A stretch of 64,000 nt of DNA, taken from the NCBI GenBank assembly GCA_002104895.1, contig MCFG01000140.1, forward strand, positions 84,298-148,297, read 5' to 3'. Positions 29,497-64,000 of this stretch are shown here, one piece after another. Every line of letters starts with the position of its first letter. The stretch's first letter is position 1. Made by a program: the position numbers and the translations under genes. Under the pieces are notes generated by a model. The model was not told the origin of the DNA, did no database searches, and saw only the letters and a list, made by a program, of their open reading frames with translations. Source of the stretch: Anaeromyces robustus (lineage: Eukaryota > Neocallimastigomycota > Neocallimastigomycetes > Neocallimastigales > Neocallimastigaceae).

Positions 29497-32400
29497 ATGG
29501 CATTTAGTGGGTAAAATAAAAAATATATAATTACTTATAGTTTAAAAAATTCAATTTAAATTATATATAATAATTATATATGTTATAATCTTATTATTAT
29601 AATTATTATTCCTTTTTTTTTTTACTAAAAGTGGATCAAATTTTATTGAAGGAAATAATGGTGAATGTTTTTTGAGAATGAAGTTACCAGATGATGGTAC
29701 GACAATGATTAATATACCGAGTAAAACTATAACACTTTGGGATGTTGTATGTAAAGTTGCAGAAAAGAAAAGTTATGTACCTGGAGATTATATAATACTT
29801 GCAGAAAAGGGAAGTAAGAAACTTAAACCCGACCTTTCTGAAACATTAGAATCATATTTAGAATACACATTGAAGTTAATTTCAGGTAAATTAATAAGTC
29901 ATACTATTAGTATTAATATTAATATTTATTGTTTTTATTGTTATTTATTGTTAAATAATTATCATTTTTATGATAACTGTAAAATAAAAGTTGAGGATAA
30001 AAATGAATCACAAAATCGAAGAAGAGGTTCAATTATGAATTCACCAGCATCAAAGAAATTAAACTTTAAAATGAAAAAATATAATTTCCCTGCTACAATT
30101 GATGAAGAACAAATAAAGAAAAAACAACAAAATAGTGTAACTGGAAGTGATTTTAATTTACGTATAGGTAAAAGTAAAAAATCATTTTCATTATTCATTT
30201 TCAGAAGAAGCTCAAGTACATTAATAGATTCAAGACTATCAAATAATTCATTACAAGATGAAAATAATACAGAAGATAGTTTACATGTAAGTGAAATACA
30301 TGAATCATTAAGTGGAGAAAATGGAAGTTTAGCTAGTATAAACAGTAATTTTTATATTTAATTTATAATGAATATTATATGTGATTAATTATGTATTAAC
30401 ATTTAAGTTTATATGTTATCATTAATAAACAGGTATTGAGAGTGCGCAAAATCATGAAGTAGGTTTTAAAGGAAAAGATTTATCTTTGATTGATATTGAT
30501 TCGGGAAAACCTGATGGTTAATATTATATATATTTATTAATATAACGATGTAAACTATTAAATACTGATTATTTTTTTTATACTATAGATCATACTCATT
30601 ATACTATTAGGTAATTAAACAATAAATAATTTTTTATAATATCTATTAAAATATTTATAAATTGTACATATAATTTTTTAAATTAAAATAAAAGAAAAGC
30701 AATTGTTTCTCCTGGTGGAGTTAATAATAGTAATTCTACTCTTAGAAGAAATACATTTCGTAAACATCAAAGGTCACAGACTGATAATATGTATTTAAAA
30801 CAAAATGGAAATACTGATAGTAATGCTACATGTACTATATATATATTATTTAATGATGAAGATAAAAGTGAATTTCAATTTCCAGGAGAAATGCCCATGG
30901 ATGCAATATTATCATGTGCATGTAAGAAAAAAGAATTAGATGAAGAAATATATACACTTCAATCTGAAAATGGTGATAAAATTCAACTTGATAGATTACT
31001 GAAATACTATACACAAGAAAGTAATATAAATATTAATACATTTAAAATAATTGAAGGAGAAAAATATTATAGTACTGTATGTGTAAATGAAAATGACCAA
31101 GATGTTATGATATTACAATATACAAATGATGAAGAGTATGGATTATTATTATTATAATATTAATATATTATATAAATTGAATTGAATAAATGAATATTTA
31201 TTAATATGTATTTAAAGTTTACAAGTAATGGCAGGAACAATAGATAAACTTATCGAAAGAGCAACAGATGATTCTGAAAAAGGTATTCTTTTATTCTTTT
31301 TTCTTTATATTCATATGGAAAAAGTTAAAATGATTTATAATTTAATATTAATAATATAAATATTTATATAATAACAATAGACGATACATTTTTAGATATA
31401 TTCTTATTGACATATCGTGCATATATAAAGCCTATGGAATTTTTCCAACTATTAACAGCAAGATATCCTTTTATTTTATAATATGAGTATTACCATAATA
31501 ATAATAATTTTTATATATTTATTATTTATAATTATAGTTTATATATGTTATTTTCTTTAATAAATAAATACATTTAATTGTGAGCTTCCACCAGATCCTA
31601 GTGAAGATGATATAAAATACTTTGAAGATATGAAAGGATTAATTCAGTCAAAGTAATATTCAATATAAATTTAGTTATAATAAAATTAAAATATTTAGTA
31701 GGTTAATATATATATTTTTAATATTATAAAAAAGTGTTGTAAGTGTTATGGAATATTGGGTGAAGCATCATTGGCATGATTTTGCTGTATATCCAGATTT
31801 AGAAGAAAATTTATGTTCATTTATTAATGAATTAAAACCTTATGAAGAATATACCCAGAGAGTTGAAGATTTTGAAAGCCAAATAGAATTACAAGTAAAT
31901 AATATATAAATATATACAATGAATATATTATAATTTTTATTAATAAAAATTACTTATGATAATATAAAAATATTATTTTAATTTAGAAAAAGAAATATGA
32001 AGATATGTTTGAATACATAAGAAGAGTAGAAAAAAGAGGAAAAGTAATGCAAAGTATGCTTAGTGAATTAGATCCAGTTGTCGTTGCTGAACAATTATGT
32101 ATATATGATTTTAAACTTATGAAAAATATTCATCCAATTGAATATTTAAATCAAATATGGGGAAATAAAGATAATGAAGATTCACCATGTTTAAATTTCT
32201 TTATATCTCGGTTTAATTTAGTATGTACTAATTAATTTAATAAATATAAAAAAAAAATTATAAGGATTTAAGAAATTAATTAAAAATAAAAAAAAAAATT
32301 TAATAATTCAGGAAAGCTTTTGGGCAGCAACTGAAGTATTATCAGTAAAAGATTTAAAAAAGAGAACTGAAACTCTAAAAAAAATTATTCAAGTTACAAA

Positions 32401-33113
32401 GGTAATAGTTAATATTATTTTAAAAATAAAATAAACTTTTTAATACTAATATTTATATATTTAACACTTTTTATTTTATAGTCTTGTTTAGATAATAATA
32501 ATTTCTTTAGTACTTTTGCACTTCTATCTGGATTAAGTACTAATGCAATTCAACGTTTAAAAAAGACTTGGGAAGTAAGAAATTTTAAAAAATAAAGTTA
32601 AATAATTATATATAAATGAAAATTAAATATAATAATAACATATATATAATAATTTAAAAATAATATAGGGACTATCATCAAAAGTAAAAAGTACATTTAC
32701 AGAAATAGAAAAATTAATGGATCCATCAAGAAATATGAGAAATTACAGAATGGAATTAGAATCAAAAGAACCACCTATTATACCGTTTTTACGTAACTAT
32801 TAATATTTTAAATATTTTAAATAAAAAACAAATTAAAATAACAAATTTTATGTATATATAATATAAATAATATTTAGCTATCTATTTAAAGGATTTAACA
32901 TTTATTAATGATGGTAATCAATCGAAAGTGGAAAACATGATAAATTTTGATAAATTAAGAATGATGTCAAATCGTGTTCATGATTTAACAAGTTTAATTG
33001 ATAAATCATATGATTTTAAAGAAGATCCAATTATTCAAAATTATCTTGCAAAACCTCCAAAAGTTGATGATGATAAAGAATTAAAACAAATGTCACTAGA
33101 ATGTGAAAAATAA
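29497..33113 (+). CDS. RasGEF (CDC25-type) with two ubiquitin-like N-terminal regions (spliced, ~777 aa)
   Basis: Exons 29497-29510, 29632-29885, 29991-30344, 30433-30516, 30589-30610, 30695-31135, 31218-31282, 31381-31462, 31572-31652, 31735-31894, 31987-32220, 32312-32401, 32482-32574, 32669-32792 and 32878-33113 keep phase throughout. Residues about 12-90 and 288-370 look like RA/RBD-type ubiquitin folds. The RasGEF_N (REM) region starts near 390 (LQVMAGTIDKLIERA, FLLTYRAY). The catalytic CDC25 domain runs from about 540 (SELDPVVVAEQLCIYDFKLM, CLNFFISRFNLESFWAATEV, SGLSTNAIQRLKKTWE, PIYLKDLTFINDG). RasGEFs load GTP onto Ras/Rap GTPases; the exact target cannot be told. The REM domain is split by an apparent U12-type AT-AC intron (31463-31571). 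The other introns are GT..AG. Confidence 0.9.
31463..31571 (+). other. U12-type AT-AC intron in the RasGEF gene (109 nt)
   Basis: The intron starts ATATCCTTTT, which is the minor-spliceosome 5' splice site consensus, and ends AC. A branch-site match TTCTTTAAT (31553-31561; consensus TTCCTTRAY, one mismatch) puts the branch A at 31560, 11 nt before the 3' end. Removing it in phase 2 gives QLLTAR-FNCELPP, matching RasGEF_N consensus. No GT..AG alternative keeps the frame, because an in-frame TAA follows within 20 nt. Confidence 0.85.
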
Positions 33114-33911
<798 letters not shown>

Positions 33912-54417: not shown

Positions 54418-57400
54418 GTTATGGAAAAAGAATTAGAGAATATCTTAAATTGAAACTTCCAATATATATGATTCCAAATTATTTCAAATTAATTCAGGTA
54501 TTACCAGTCACTAGAAATGGTAAATTGGATAGAAAAGTATTACCTGAACCAGATATAAATGATATCATTGAAGAAAAATATGTTAAACCAGTAAATAAAA
54601 TTGAAGAAAAGATATGTGAAATATATAGTCAAATATTTAACATTGATATAAATAAGATTGGAAGAACAAGTGACTTTTTAGAATTAGGAGGAGATAGTTT
54701 ACAAGCAATTCGAGTAGCAACATTTATTGAAAAAGAATACAAAGTTAAGATATATATGAAAGATGTTCTTTCTCATTCAACAACATTTGATTTAGGAAAA
54801 TTCATTGATTATAAAATTAAAAATGATAAAGAAAACGAAAAAGAAATACATATTATTAAGAAGTATAATCAAAAAGAATATCCAATTACATCACAACAAA
54901 TGGGAGTTTATATTGATTCAATTAAGAATCCAAATAGTACAATTTATAATATTCCTAGAGTATTACCACTTAATAAATCCATTGACATAAAAAAGATTAA
55001 AGAAGGTTTTAATAAATTATTTAATAAACAAAATATATTAAGAAGTAAATATATTGAAGTAGAAATAGATGATAAAACTGAAATACATGGATATATTGAT
55101 GATGAATGTAAATTAATATTTGAAGAATATACATATGATAATGCAAAAACATTTGTTCGACCATTTGATTTATCAAAAGCACCACTAATTCGTGTAGGAT
55201 TCATTGAAAACGAAGTTTTATTAATTGATATGCATCATATTATATCAGATGGTACTACAATGTCGATTATTATAAATGAAATTAATAAATATTATAATGG
55301 CTTATCAATGTCAGAATTAGAAGTTCAATTTAGTGATTATGCTATCCATATGGATGAAATGAAAAATAGTGAATGGTATTCTAAACAAATAGAATTTTAT
55401 AAAAAAATGTTTAAAGAAGATTATGAAATAGCCATGATACCTCAAAATGATTATAAAGTAATAGAATATAATGAAATATGGAATATAAATAAATGAAAAC
55501 AAAGAAATTGAAATTGGAAACTGTGACAAATATATTGATGCTTTATTGAGTGAAAAAATCAATGAATATATTAGAATTAATAAGATTAGTAAAACATCAT
55601 TCTTTTTAAGTATTTATGGATATATATTAAGTAAATATAGTGGACAAGAAATAATATACACTTCAATGATGAGTGCTAATAGAAACAATCATTATTTAGA
55701 AAATATGATTGGTATGTTTGTAAGTACTCAACCAATTCTTCTGAAATATGATAAACCAAGTAAATCATTTTTAGATATAATTAAAATGAATATGAAAATA
55801 TTAATGGAATTATATAATAATCAAGATATTTCATTTTCAGAATTAATAAATGCTTTAAAATTGAAAAAAGTAAATAATTCCTTTATATTCCAACCTAAAA
55901 GTATAATTGAGAATAGTAATTCAAATGGATCAGTATTTTTAAATGAAGACGTTCATAAAATGTATAGCCTTTATGAAGAATCTAATGAATTCCAATTAGA
56001 TAATGATAATACCACTAAATTTGATATAATATTTAATGTAATAGAAAGAAATGAAGGATATTTATTAGAAATAGAATATAATAAATTAAAATATAATGTT
56101 GAAACAATTAATGATTTAATGAATAGTTATATAGAAGTATTAAACAATATAAATAATTTCGATAAATCAATTAAATCAATAAATTATCTACCTAATAATA
56201 TGAAAAATGAAATTTTATATAACTTTAACAATAATTGGAATGATAAAGAAAGTTATGGATTTTATCATGAAGAATTCAAAAGAATAGCAAAGATTAATCC
56301 AGATAAAGTTGCTATTAAATTTAATAAAGAAAACATAACATATAATGAATTAGATAAAATAACAAATTCGTTATCTAATTATTTAAGAAAAATTGGAATA
56401 AAAAGAAATGATATTATTCCAATAATTACTGAAAGAAATCCATATTATATTATTGCTTTACTTTCAGTATCTAAATCAGGAGCAGCTTATTTACCAATTG
56501 ATATAAAATTACCAACTAAAAGAATTGAATATATTTTAAAAGAAGTTAATCCTAAAGTTATTCTTTATGACACTGTTAATATTGAAAATATGAAAATTAA
56601 AATCGACATTAAATATAATTATTACAATTTACGCACACATAATTATAATAATGATATAAATGATATTGTTAACATAAATAAGCCTGAAGATATATGTTAT
56701 ATATTATTCACTTCAGGTACTACTGGAAAACCAAAGGGAGTTTTAATTAATCATTTTAATATATATAATTATGTAAGATCATTTGATGAAGAAAATAAAG
56801 AATGTAATAATAATTTATGTATTTATAATATATTCATTAAAAATCATAATATAAAAAATGTTTTATCAATAACTAACTTTGCATTTGATTCAGCACAAAC
56901 TGAAATTACATTTAGTTTAGTTCATGGATTAAAAATAATATTAGCAGATGATAATATTTCATCAGATATAAAATTATTATCAAAATATATGATAGATAAT
57001 GATGTAGAATTCATTAATACAACACCAACTAGATTTAAATTATTTATTGAAAATGAAGAATTTAAAAAATCTTTAAATAATTTAAAGATAGTTTATTTAG
57101 GAGGTGAAGAATTAACATTAGATTTATGTAAAAGAATTCATAAATATCTCAATGTAAGATTTATAATAGTTATGGTCCAACAGAATGTACAGTAGATTGT
57201 TCCATTAAAGAAATAAATGAAGACAATGAAAATGAAATAACAATTGGAAAACCAATTTGTAATTGTTCGATATATATTTTAGATAAATATTTAAATCCAA
57301 TTCCTATTGATGTTGAAGGTGAAATATATATCAGTGGTTATAATGTTGGACAAGGATATATAAATAAAGAAGAATTGACAAAAGAAGTATTTATAAGTAA

Positions 57401-60986: not shown

Positions 60987-63900
60987 GTTATGGAAAAAGA
61001 ATTAGAGAATATCTTAAATTGAAACTTCCAATATATATGATTCCAAATTATTTCAAATTAATTCAGGTATTACCAGTCACTAGAAATGGTAAATTGGATA
61101 GAAAAGTATTACCTGAACCAGATATAAATGATATCATTGAAGAAAAATATGTTAAACCAGTAAATAAAATTGAAGAAAAGATATGTGAAATATATAGTCA
61201 AATATTTAACATTGATATAAATAAGATTGGAAGAACAAGTGACTTTTTAGAATTAGGAGGAGATAGTTTACAAGCAATTCGAGTAGCAACATTTATTGAA
61301 AAAGAATACAAAGTTAAGATATATATGAAAGATGTTCTTTCTCATTCAACAACATTTGATTTAGGAAAATTCATTGATTATAAAATTAAAAATGATAGAG
61401 AAAATGAAGAAGAAATACATATTATTAAGAAGTATAATCAAAAAGAATATCCAATTACATCACAACAAATGGGAGTTTATATTGATTCAATTAAGAATCC
61501 AAATAGTACAATTTATAATATTCCTAGAGTATTACCACTTAATAAATCCATTGACATTAAAAAGATTAAAGAAGGTTTTAATAAATTATTTAATAAACAA
61601 AATATATTAAGAAGTAAATATATTGAAGTAGAAATAGATGATAAAACTGAAATACATGGATATATTGATGATGAATGTTCATTGATATTTGAAGAGTACA
61701 CATATGGAAATGCTAAAACATTTGTTCGACCATTTGATTTATCGAAAGCGCCACTAATTCGTGTAGGATTCATTGAAAACGAAGTTTTATTAATTGATAT
61801 GCATCATATTATATCAGATGGTACTACAATGTCGATTATTATAAATGAAATTAATAAATATTATAATGGCTTATCAATGTCAGAATTAGAAGTTCAATTT
61901 AGTGACTATGCTATTCATATGGATGAGATGAAAAATAGTGAATGGTATTCTAAACAAATAGAATTATATAAAAAATTGTTTAAAGAAGAATATGAAATAG
62001 CCAGGATTCCTCAAAATGATAAAGTAATAGAATATAATGAAAATAATGAATATAAAATAAATGAAAACAAAGAAAGTGAAATTGGAAATTGTGACAAATA
62101 TATTGATACTTTAATGAGTGAAAAAATTAATGAATATATTAGAATTAATAAGATTAGTAAAACATCATTCTTTTTAAGTATTTATGGATATATATTAAGT
62201 AAATATAGTGGACAAGAAATCATATATACTTCAATGATGAGTGCTAATAGAAACAATCATTATTTAGAAAATATGATAGGTATGTTTGTAAGTACTCAAC
62301 CAATTCTTCTAAAATATGATCAATCTAATAAATCATTTTTGGATATTCTTAAAGAAAATATGGAAATTATAATGGAATTATATAATAATCAAGATATATC
62401 ATTTTCAGAACTTATAAATACTTTGAAATTGAAGAAAGTTAATAATTCTTTCATTTTCCAACCTAAAGATATTTTTGAAAATAGTAATATAGATAATTCA
62501 ATATTTCCATATGAGGAAATTAAAAAAATGTATAGTCTTTATGAAAAATCTAATGAATTCCAATTAGATAATGATAATATTACAAAATTTGATATAACAT
62601 TTAATGTAATAGAAAGAAATGAAGGATATTTATTCGAAATAGAATATAATAAATTAAAATATAATGTTGAAACAATTAATGATTTAATGAATAGTTATAT
62701 AGAAGTATTAAATAATATAAATAATTTCGATAAATCAATTAAATCAATAAATTATCTACCTAATAATATGAAAAATGAAATTTTATATAACTTTAACAAT
62801 AATTGGAATGATAAAGAAAGTTATGGATTTTATCATGAAGAATTCAAAAGAATAGCAAAGATTAATCCAAATAAAGTTGCTATTAAATTTAATAAAGAAA
62901 AAATAACATATAATGAATTAGATAAAATAACAAATTCGTTATCTAATTATTTAAGAAAAATTGGAATAAAAAGAAATGATATTATTCCAATAATTACTGA
63001 AAGAAATCCATATTATATTATTGCTTTACTTTCAGTATCTAAATCAGGAGCAGCTTATTTACCAATTGATATAAAATTACCAACTGAAAGAATTGAATAT
63101 ATTTTAAAAGAAGTTAATCCTAAAGTTATTCTTTATGACACTGTTAATATTGAAAATATGAAAAATGAAATCGATATTAAATATAATTATTACAATTTAC
63201 GTACACATAATTATAATAATGATATAAATGATATTGTTAACATAAATAAGCCTGAAGATATATGTTATATATTATTCACTTCAGGTACTACTGGAAAACC
63301 AAAGGGAGTTTTAATTAATCATTTTAATATATATAATTATGTAAGATCATTTGATGAAGAAAATAAAGAATGTAATAATAATTTATGTATTTATAATATA
63401 TTCATTAAAAATCATAATATAAAAAATGTTTTATCAATAACTAACTTTGCATTTGATTCAGCACAAACTGAAATTACATTTAGTTTAGTTCATGGATTAA
63501 AAATAATATTAGCAGATGATAATATTTCATCAGATATAAAATTATTATCAAAATATATGATAGATAATGATGTAGAATTCATTAATACAACACCAACTAG
63601 ATTTAAATTATTTATTGAAAATGAAGAATTTAAAAAATCTTTAAATGATTTAAAAATAGTTTATTTAGGAGGTGAAGAATTATCATTAGATTTATGTAAG
63701 AAAATTCATAAATACTCTCAATGTAAGATTTATAATAGTTATGGTCCAACAGAATGTACAGTAGATTGTTCCATTAAAGAAATAAATGAAGACAATGAAA
63801 ATGAAATAACAATTGGAAAACCAATTTGTAATTGTTCGATATATATTTTAGATAAATATTTAAATCCAATTCCTATTGATGTTGAAGGTGAAATATATAT

Positions 63901-64000
63901 CAGTGGTTATAATGTTGGACAAGGATATATAAATAAAGAAGAATTGACAAAAGAAGTATTTATAAGTAATCCATTTAAAAATGGTGAAATGATGTATAAA
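41817..64000 (+). CDS. Giant multimodular nonribosomal peptide synthetase, 3' partial, at least 7 modules
   Basis: An intronless frame opens at ATG 41817 and runs off the window, giving more than 7,390 codons. Order: C1-A1-T1, C2-A2-T2, C3-A3-T3, C4-A4-T4, C5-A5-T5, C6-A6-T6, C7-A7 (cut). Each module shows SGTTGKPKG (A3 motif), YGPTE, TGDLGKW, GQRIEL and NGKLDRK in the A domain, GGDS in the carrier, and HHIISDG in C2-C7. No epimerase, reductase or thioesterase is seen yet. It would assemble a peptide by amino-acid adenylation, thioester loading and condensation. C domains begin PITSQQxGVYIDSIKNP, reminiscent of Firmicutes NRPSs. With the lack of introns beside 6-15-exon neighbours, this suggests acquisition from bacteria, later shifted to host AT content. 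The frame is interrupted at about 55465-55496, 57148, 58990, 59016, 59190 and 59232. Confidence 0.93.
41840..44990 (+). other. NRPS module 1: degenerate C1, unusual A1, T1
   Basis: C1 (about 41840-43130) reads DIHRIIVDK at 42201-42227 where HHxxxDG is expected, so the second His and the Gly are lost. A1 (about 43190-44730) has FNISITE in place of FDxSxxE and YGTTE in place of YGPTE. Specificity positions read N-I-T-A-S-G-G-S-M, with Asn at 235. T1 carries its pantetheine Ser at 44871 (GGDS). A short NS-repeat linker follows (about 45003-45050). Confidence 0.85.
45090..48270 (+). other. NRPS module 2: C2-A2-T2
   Basis: C2 has an intact HH at 45453 (DIHHIISDG). A2 (about 46440-48010) has FDISHNE and NGYGPTECTIT; specificity positions read D-I-N-N-S-A-G-I-T. 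T2 pantetheine Ser at 48147. A2 shares the NTTPTRFKLF loop with A4-A7, unlike A1 and A3. No substrate is assigned. Confidence 0.88.
48320..51480 (+). other. NRPS module 3: C3-A3-T3
   Basis: C3 HH at 48681. A3 (about 49680-51215) has FDMSVGE and NPYGPTETTVIC; specificity positions read D-M-G-F-Y-G-P-V-I. T3 Ser at 51354, in GGDSFKAIQ. From about 51,000 on, the sequence is closely matched 6.57 kb downstream, where the A5 tail and T5 lie. Confidence 0.88.
51540..54810 (+). other. NRPS module 4: C4-A4-T4
   Basis: C4 HH at 51900. A4 (about 52900-54560) has FDLSHIE and NSYGPTECSVTC; specificity positions read D-L-I-T-I-I-S-V-T. A poly-Asn insertion (about 54378-54415) sits between the A8 and A10 motifs. 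T4 Ser at 54696. A4-T4 is almost identical to A6-T6. Confidence 0.88.
55460..55498 (+). other. Frame break in NRPS C5 (stop TGA at 55494)
   Basis: The in-frame copy at about 62030-62072 is two bases longer over the same stretch; the missing bases lie in A-rich runs. The frame moves from 0 to 1 (modulo 3) and coding continues at once, without any splice-site pair. Confidence 0.75.
57144..57153 (+). other. Single-base frame break in NRPS A5
   Basis: Here AAATATCTCAATG stands where A7 has AAATACTCTCAATG at about 63710, one base short. It falls just before the YGPTE motif, which is intact in the next frame. Confidence 0.85.
58110..61390 (+). other. NRPS module 6: C6-A6-T6, frame broken in C6
   Basis: C6 HH at 58470. 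Four single-base deficits relative to C4 lie between 58,988 and 59,235. A6 repeats the A4 signature and its poly-Asn insertion (about 60945-60985). T6 Ser at 61265. From about 59,236 the frame is open to the window end. Confidence 0.85.
58985..59240 (+). other. Cluster of four single-base frame breaks in NRPS C6
   Basis: Compared with C4 at 52,400-52,680, one base is missing at each of about 58990 (homopolymer T), 59016 (GG to G), 59190 (TCTC to TCC region) and 59232 (A run). The frame goes 0 to 1 to 2. Sequence outside the gaps stays highly similar. Confidence 0.8.
61445..64000 (+). other. NRPS module 7: C7 and partial A7
   Basis: C7 HH at 61802, with no frame breaks. A7 (from about 62815) repeats the A5 signature (FDSAQTE, NSYGPTECTVDC) and is cut by the window edge after the GEMMYK motif that begins TGD-type core A7. 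Confidence 0.88.

Follow-up and report, generated by a model that had tools for sequence, protein, structure and literature searches.

A very probable U12-type AT-AC intron in a Ras-family guanine-nucleotide-exchange gene of a probable anaerobic gut fungus, and an atypical U6atac in the same genome

The stretch of 64,000 nucleotides that we analyzed (the window; 17.8% G+C) contains a gene of the Ras-family guanine-nucleotide-exchange type, whose coding sequence is interrupted from 31463 to 31571 by what is, with high confidence, a U12-type AT-AC intron removed by the minor spliceosome. The host probably belongs to the anaerobic gut fungi (Neocallimastigomycota). Its genome, searched over 70,169,043 bases in 769 contigs, harbors at least 150 matches to CBM_10 (150 scored among 683 candidates), which we take to be the module that serves as dockerin in these fungi. 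The features discussed below are collected in Table 1.

Minor introns of the U12 type are marked by an RTATCCTTT-like element at the 5' end. The intron starts with such an element, ATATCCTTTT, which occupies 31463-31472 and fits this consensus, and toward its other end it carries TTCTTTAAT, close to the branch element TTCCTTAAC. From the presumed branch A to the intron end there are 11 bases, in agreement with the distance of about 10 to 15 bases from the 3' end that characterizes U12-type introns, and the best duplex between TTCTTTAAT and the U12 box of this genome has an energy of -4.2 kcal/mol. A preliminary description of the window, made by eye from the letters, had placed the intron at 31463..31571 on the basis of these signals, and ATATCCTTTT, TTCTTTAAT, A31560 and the AC at 31570-31571 were all confirmed.

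We then asked what the removal of the intron does to the protein. Joining 31462 to 31572 gives the spliced product LLTARFNCELPP and restores the phrase FFQLLTARFNCELPPDPS in frame; if the intron is retained, the frame runs into a stop within at most 7 codons. The joined protein has 774 residues. RasGEF_N covers residues 389-491 (profile positions 1-105 of 106, 77.4 bits), and the RasGEF domain covers residues 549-724 (203.1 bits), both by Pfam. By arithmetic from the exon lengths, the codon split by the intron is that of residue 436, which lies within RasGEF_N. Exact removal therefore restores both the frame and a conserved domain, and the in-phase repair of the REM domain that had been claimed is borne out, since RasGEF_N (REM) is unbroken across the junction. 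The relatives of the joined protein in the PDB are Epac (RapGEF4), CDC25 and SOS-type chains, and no RasGEF relatives were found in viral contigs. In the gene model, 12 GT-AG introns were placed by script and the last intron and the stop codon by eye. The earlier statement that every other intron of the window reads GT..AG was checked in this gene only and stands for its 13 other introns, 12 of them scripted and 1 read by eye.

Table 1. Positions of the intron, its signals, the surrounding gene and the U6atac copies
Feature	Position	Strand	Basis
Predicted U12-type AT-AC intron, 109 bases, phase 2	31463..31571	+	signals read directly; frame; Pfam match unbroken over junction
5' splice-site element ATATCCTTTT	31463..31472	+	read directly; fits U12-type 5' consensus
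Branch-site element TTCTTTAAT, with A31560 as presumed branch A	31553..31561	+	read directly; duplex with the genome's U12 box
Intron 3' terminal AC	31570..31571	+	read directly
RasGEF gene with RasGEF_N and RasGEF domains, 14 introns (13 GT-AG, 1 AT-AC)	29497..33114	+	gene model, Pfam, PDB
Exon 8, upstream of the intron, first part of REM domain	31381..31462	+	gene model
Exon 9, downstream of the intron, REM domain continued	31572..31652	+	gene model
U6atac, only full-length copy found	L003:1501-1648, contig C1:239650-239797	minus	Rfam
U6atac 5' fragment, about the first 38 nucleotides before diverging, box GCCGAGAGACAG	L004:1501-1587, contig C766:128917-129003		box-free search

Among the minor-spliceosome RNAs named for a covariance-model search in the preliminary description, U12 and U6atac were recovered above their Rfam cut-offs, U4atac as a candidate below its cut-off, and U11 was not found. 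U12 scored 57.4 bits (cut-off 53) and carries the branch-binding box GAGTAAGGATAATAAC. U6atac scored 61.5 bits (cut-off 33), and a long run of T lies just after its gene. With the E-value limit unchanged, this model also matched 8 of the 14 control genomes, none of them above the cut-off; weak matches in our genome (L005-L010) lie, as judged by eye, inside a repeated element and were taken as chance. The U4atac candidate reached 40.4 bits, below the cut-off of 53, and with an unchanged E-value limit the model also matched one of the 14 control genomes. The 5' end of the candidate can form 14 uninterrupted pairs with the genome's own U6atac (-25.7 kcal/mol) and a second, shorter helix (-7.6 kcal/mol), and we consider a U4atac gene in this genome probable.

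The Rfam model for U11 found nothing in the whole genome at E-values up to 1. With 3 mismatches or fewer, an 18-base pattern matched at 147 places (213 for the reversed control) and picked out no U11, and a layout pattern gave 62 places (48 for the control) among which no U11 could be settled. Of these 62, 31 were ranked by script, with the best 14 of the 31 listed, and Rfam scans of 21 of the 31 ranked loci yielded no U11. One locus, L065 (1501-1630; contig C13 from 94806), is noncoding and is laid out like a U1 or U11 RNA: its 5' end, AAAAGGA, is free, its fold is branched, and it contains AATTTTTGG as well as a hairpin at the 3' side; it has no Rfam match and its folding energy is ordinary (z -0.25), and we regard it as a weak U11 candidate. 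A search for PDCD7 (59K), the one protein specific to U11/U12 that was looked for, gave no match in the genome but none in the control genomes either and is therefore uninformative.

The strict AT-AC pattern was found at 13 places in the whole genome, compared to 6 for the reversed pattern. These correspond to 11 distinct 5' sites, six of which, RasGEF included, rejoin open frames that are not open when unspliced. The six introns are 109-119 bases long, with an insert G+C of 0.06-0.16 and phases of 2, 1, 2, 0, 1 and 2, and all six genes keep near-ideal minor-intron signals. In three of the five sister genes, a Pfam match above cut-off spans the junction (FH2 formin, ATG9, and tubulin-tyrosine ligase [TTL]); a fourth shows EF-hand models below cut-off that begin just past the junction and is phospholipase-C-like by eye, and the fifth has no Pfam match. 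The remaining sites were dropped: L020 has a frame that is open without splicing (533 codons), the long frames at L019, L026 and L030/L031 are not rejoined, and L024 rejoins an open frame (30 + 47 codons) but has an insert of 32% G+C that appears by eye to be antisense coding sequence. The claim that this organism keeps a functional minor spliceosome is supported by U12 and U6atac above their cut-offs, by the U4atac candidate and by the five sister AT-AC introns; taken as sequences, these strongly imply a working minor spliceosome.

One strict genome search for minor introns of the GT-AG kind (GTATCCTT, TTCCTTRAY, gap 60-90) gave 0 places and 1 in the control, a result that falls short of proving absence. 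Since at least six AT-AC introns were found, this suggests an AT-AC-rich set, and AT-AC may be the main or even the sole kind of minor intron in this genome. According to the text of PMC10639083, AT-AC introns make up about 26% of minor introns in human and 77% (196/253) in Blastocystis. The latter resembles our genome in that the introns found here are AT-AC and the strict GT-AG search gave none; however, Blastocystis is unrelated, only six introns are recognized here, and the searches differ in strictness.

The U6atac of this genome reads AGCCGAGAGA where the Rfam consensus (RF00619) reads AAAGGAGAGA. At the 5'-splice-site box, the Rfam alignment sets the consensus GUaUGAAAGGAGAGAAGG against GUAUGAGCCGAGAGACAG, without gaps and with high posterior. 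The box of a canonical U6atac is complementary to intron positions +4 to +9 (UCCUUU), whereas AGCCGA is not: C14 and C13 face C6 and U7, which results in mismatches at +6 and +7, with a wobble at +8 and pairs left at +4, +5, and +9. The best duplex with the intron is accordingly -3.0 kcal/mol, compared to -8.8 kcal/mol for the consensus box. Like canonical U6atac, the RNA has an ungapped 5' domain, the GAGAGA core, complementarity to U4atac and a 3' T tract; the difference is that nucleotides 12-14 are GCC instead of AAG, so that C14 is unable to pair with C6. A search that left the box free and allowed up to 3 mismatches elsewhere recovered the full gene and the 5' fragment as the two copies of this genome, both with GCCGAGAGACAG (reversed control, 0). 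The fragment looks like a partial copy. Searches for other eukaryotic U6atac copies among viral contigs and among prokaryote genomes gave 0.

The two central pairs with the intron CCUU thus cannot form, and yet the introns retain ATATCCTTT, which in the sister introns is imposed by the search pattern. When positions +6 to +8 were left free, three introns were recognized (formin L025, ATG9, and TTL), all with CCTTT, among 35 of the 46 matches (30 with loci and 5 already seen among the strict AT-AC sites); the 46 matches of this search are not above the 46 of its control. L034/L035 and L043 were flagged by the frame test and rejected as antisense to long open frames, and L038, also flagged, was rejected for a low-complexity join with no recognizable protein. 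In the set with +6 to +8 free, L024, rejected above, and L048 were flagged by the frame test as well; L041, which has a long frame upstream, was not.

As reported in the accessible part of PMC4980772, G14 and G15 of human U6atac pair with intron C5 and C6, based on compensatory mutants in cultured mammalian cells, and, in the words of a figure legend in the review PMC8283771, the interaction of the AAGGAGAGA box is characteristic of the minor spliceosome and shows perfect conservation. In a limited literature search we did not find a change of the U6atac box discussed in the texts as far as they were available, which is no proof that it is unpublished. The mismatch is unexpected; it deserves follow-up and should be accepted only after a check in the anaerobic fungi at large. 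If C14 is natural in this U6atac while the introns retain C6, nature would have provided a test of how far this helix is needed, and the box could matter more than the intron itself.

Several other explanations of the intron have to be weighed. The other introns of the RasGEF gene are of the major type and nine frame-keeping GT/GC-AG combinations exist, and the major spliceosome might hence remove this stretch, either from such nearby sites or as a rare U2-type AT-AC intron. We enumerated the nine pairs, which start at GTGCATAT or at GC sites, and rejected them because each one deletes conserved REM residues; in addition, a full U12-type 5' element and a well-placed branch element are both present, and we consider major-type splicing very improbable. 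The least probable explanation, to which we give hardly any credit, is that the motif reflects chance, an assembly error or a decayed gene and that no splicing takes place. It is true that words of the 5' element are common in this A+T-rich window, where RTATCCTTT occurs 8 times versus 3.64 expected, and the 5' word alone is therefore unremarkable. The strict pattern (ATATCCTTT..TTCYTTAAY..AC, both strands of the window), however, has a single occurrence in the window and none in any of the 200 dinucleotide shuffles, and a looser U12 pattern occurs at 3 places, with a shuffle mean of 0.055. Moreover, the intron is removed precisely, and outside it the gene is open with a full RasGEF match.

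The intron could also be of U12 type by descent in a genome whose minor spliceosome is decaying or being replaced, with U11 perhaps lost, U6atac no longer reading the site, and splicing either poor or carried out by a hybrid machinery. The failure of the Rfam model, the 18-base pattern and the layout pattern to find U11, the U6atac mismatches at +6 and +7 and the lack of GT-AG minor introns in the one strict search would all fit such a decay. Nevertheless, U12, U6atac and the U4atac candidate retain functional pairings, near-ideal signals persist in six genes, and U11 is hard to detect by sequence, the searches for it not being exhaustive. We rate this explanation as even less probable than splicing by the major spliceosome, and we keep to a U12-type intron removed by a minor spliceosome. 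As to the U6atac box itself, it is simplest to suppose that CCUU is still read by U11 and that the helix with U6atac has weakened; alternatively, the assembly may lack a second U6atac gene, or the system may be decaying. A wider proposal, which we put forward tentatively and hold to be rather doubtful, is that the minor spliceosome works with a drifted U6atac box (AAAGG to AGCCG) whose helix has gone from six possible pairs to 2+2 around two mismatches. The introns would then keep ATATCCTTT because U11 still reads the 5' site, U6atac would hold that site weakly, in a manner nearer to that of U6 in major splicing, and the set of minor introns may have been reduced to those with AT-AC ends.

Following the established mechanism of the minor spliceosome, ATATCCTTT at the start of the intron would first be recognized by a presumed U11, and U12 would pair with TTCTTTAAT, bulging A31560. 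U6atac, delivered in its pairing with U4atac, would take the place of U11 at the 5' end, after which cuts would be made at AT and AC and the exons would be joined. That splicing takes place, the order of the steps and the existence of U11 are inferences.

The background given in the preliminary description, that U12-type introns are found in early-diverging fungi, agrees with the published record. Larue and Roy 2023 (PMC10639083), in the part available, describe minor introns together with minor snRNAs in Neocallimastigomycetes and name Piromyces finnis and Neocallimastix californiae. This is the same class, with the same combination of minor introns and minor snRNAs as here; the likeness holds at class level, as that text gives neither a gene list nor snRNA sequences for Neocallimastigomycetes. 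U12-type RNAs are also mentioned in Zygomycota and Chytridiomycota in the corresponding portion of Bartschat and Samuelsson 2010 (PMC2846911). In the open-licence literature we found nothing on RasGEF genes with U12-type or minor introns or on the spliceosomes of anaerobic fungi. Minor introns in this fungal class are already published, and our intron adds one gene to the known pattern, in which the minor spliceosome disappeared from most fungi but persisted in some early-diverging ones. For this lineage the finding, though real, is fairly ordinary, and what merits further attention is the U6atac box.

In human, minor introns are present in 100% of RASGRP genes, 71% of Rap-GEF genes, 60% of phospholipase C genes and 100% of diaphanous formins, according to the part of PMC6865273 available. 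These families match those found here (RasGEF, formin FH2, and EF-hand/phospholipase-C-like) at the level of the family. Because the families are rich in human minor introns, the six introns look ancient, as judged from this gene-family agreement.

Two other regions came up during the searches. On contig C6, two box C/D snoRNAs (SNORD33 and snR61 families), both just over their gathering scores, lie close together at L063:441-524 and 699-781. In the window, the plus strand from 41817 to 64000 contains very long open frames of 4559, 549, 540, and more than 1572 residues; the frames of 549 and 540 residues match condensation, AMP-binding and carrier domains, and from its sequence the region appears to be a giant peptide-synthetase-like gene. 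Within it lie two copies of a 168-base repeat, at 57192-57359 and 63761-63928. Both copies matched the loose U12 pattern on the minus strand and were rejected by eye, being copies of one repeat that is antisense to the peptide-synthetase-like coding sequence.
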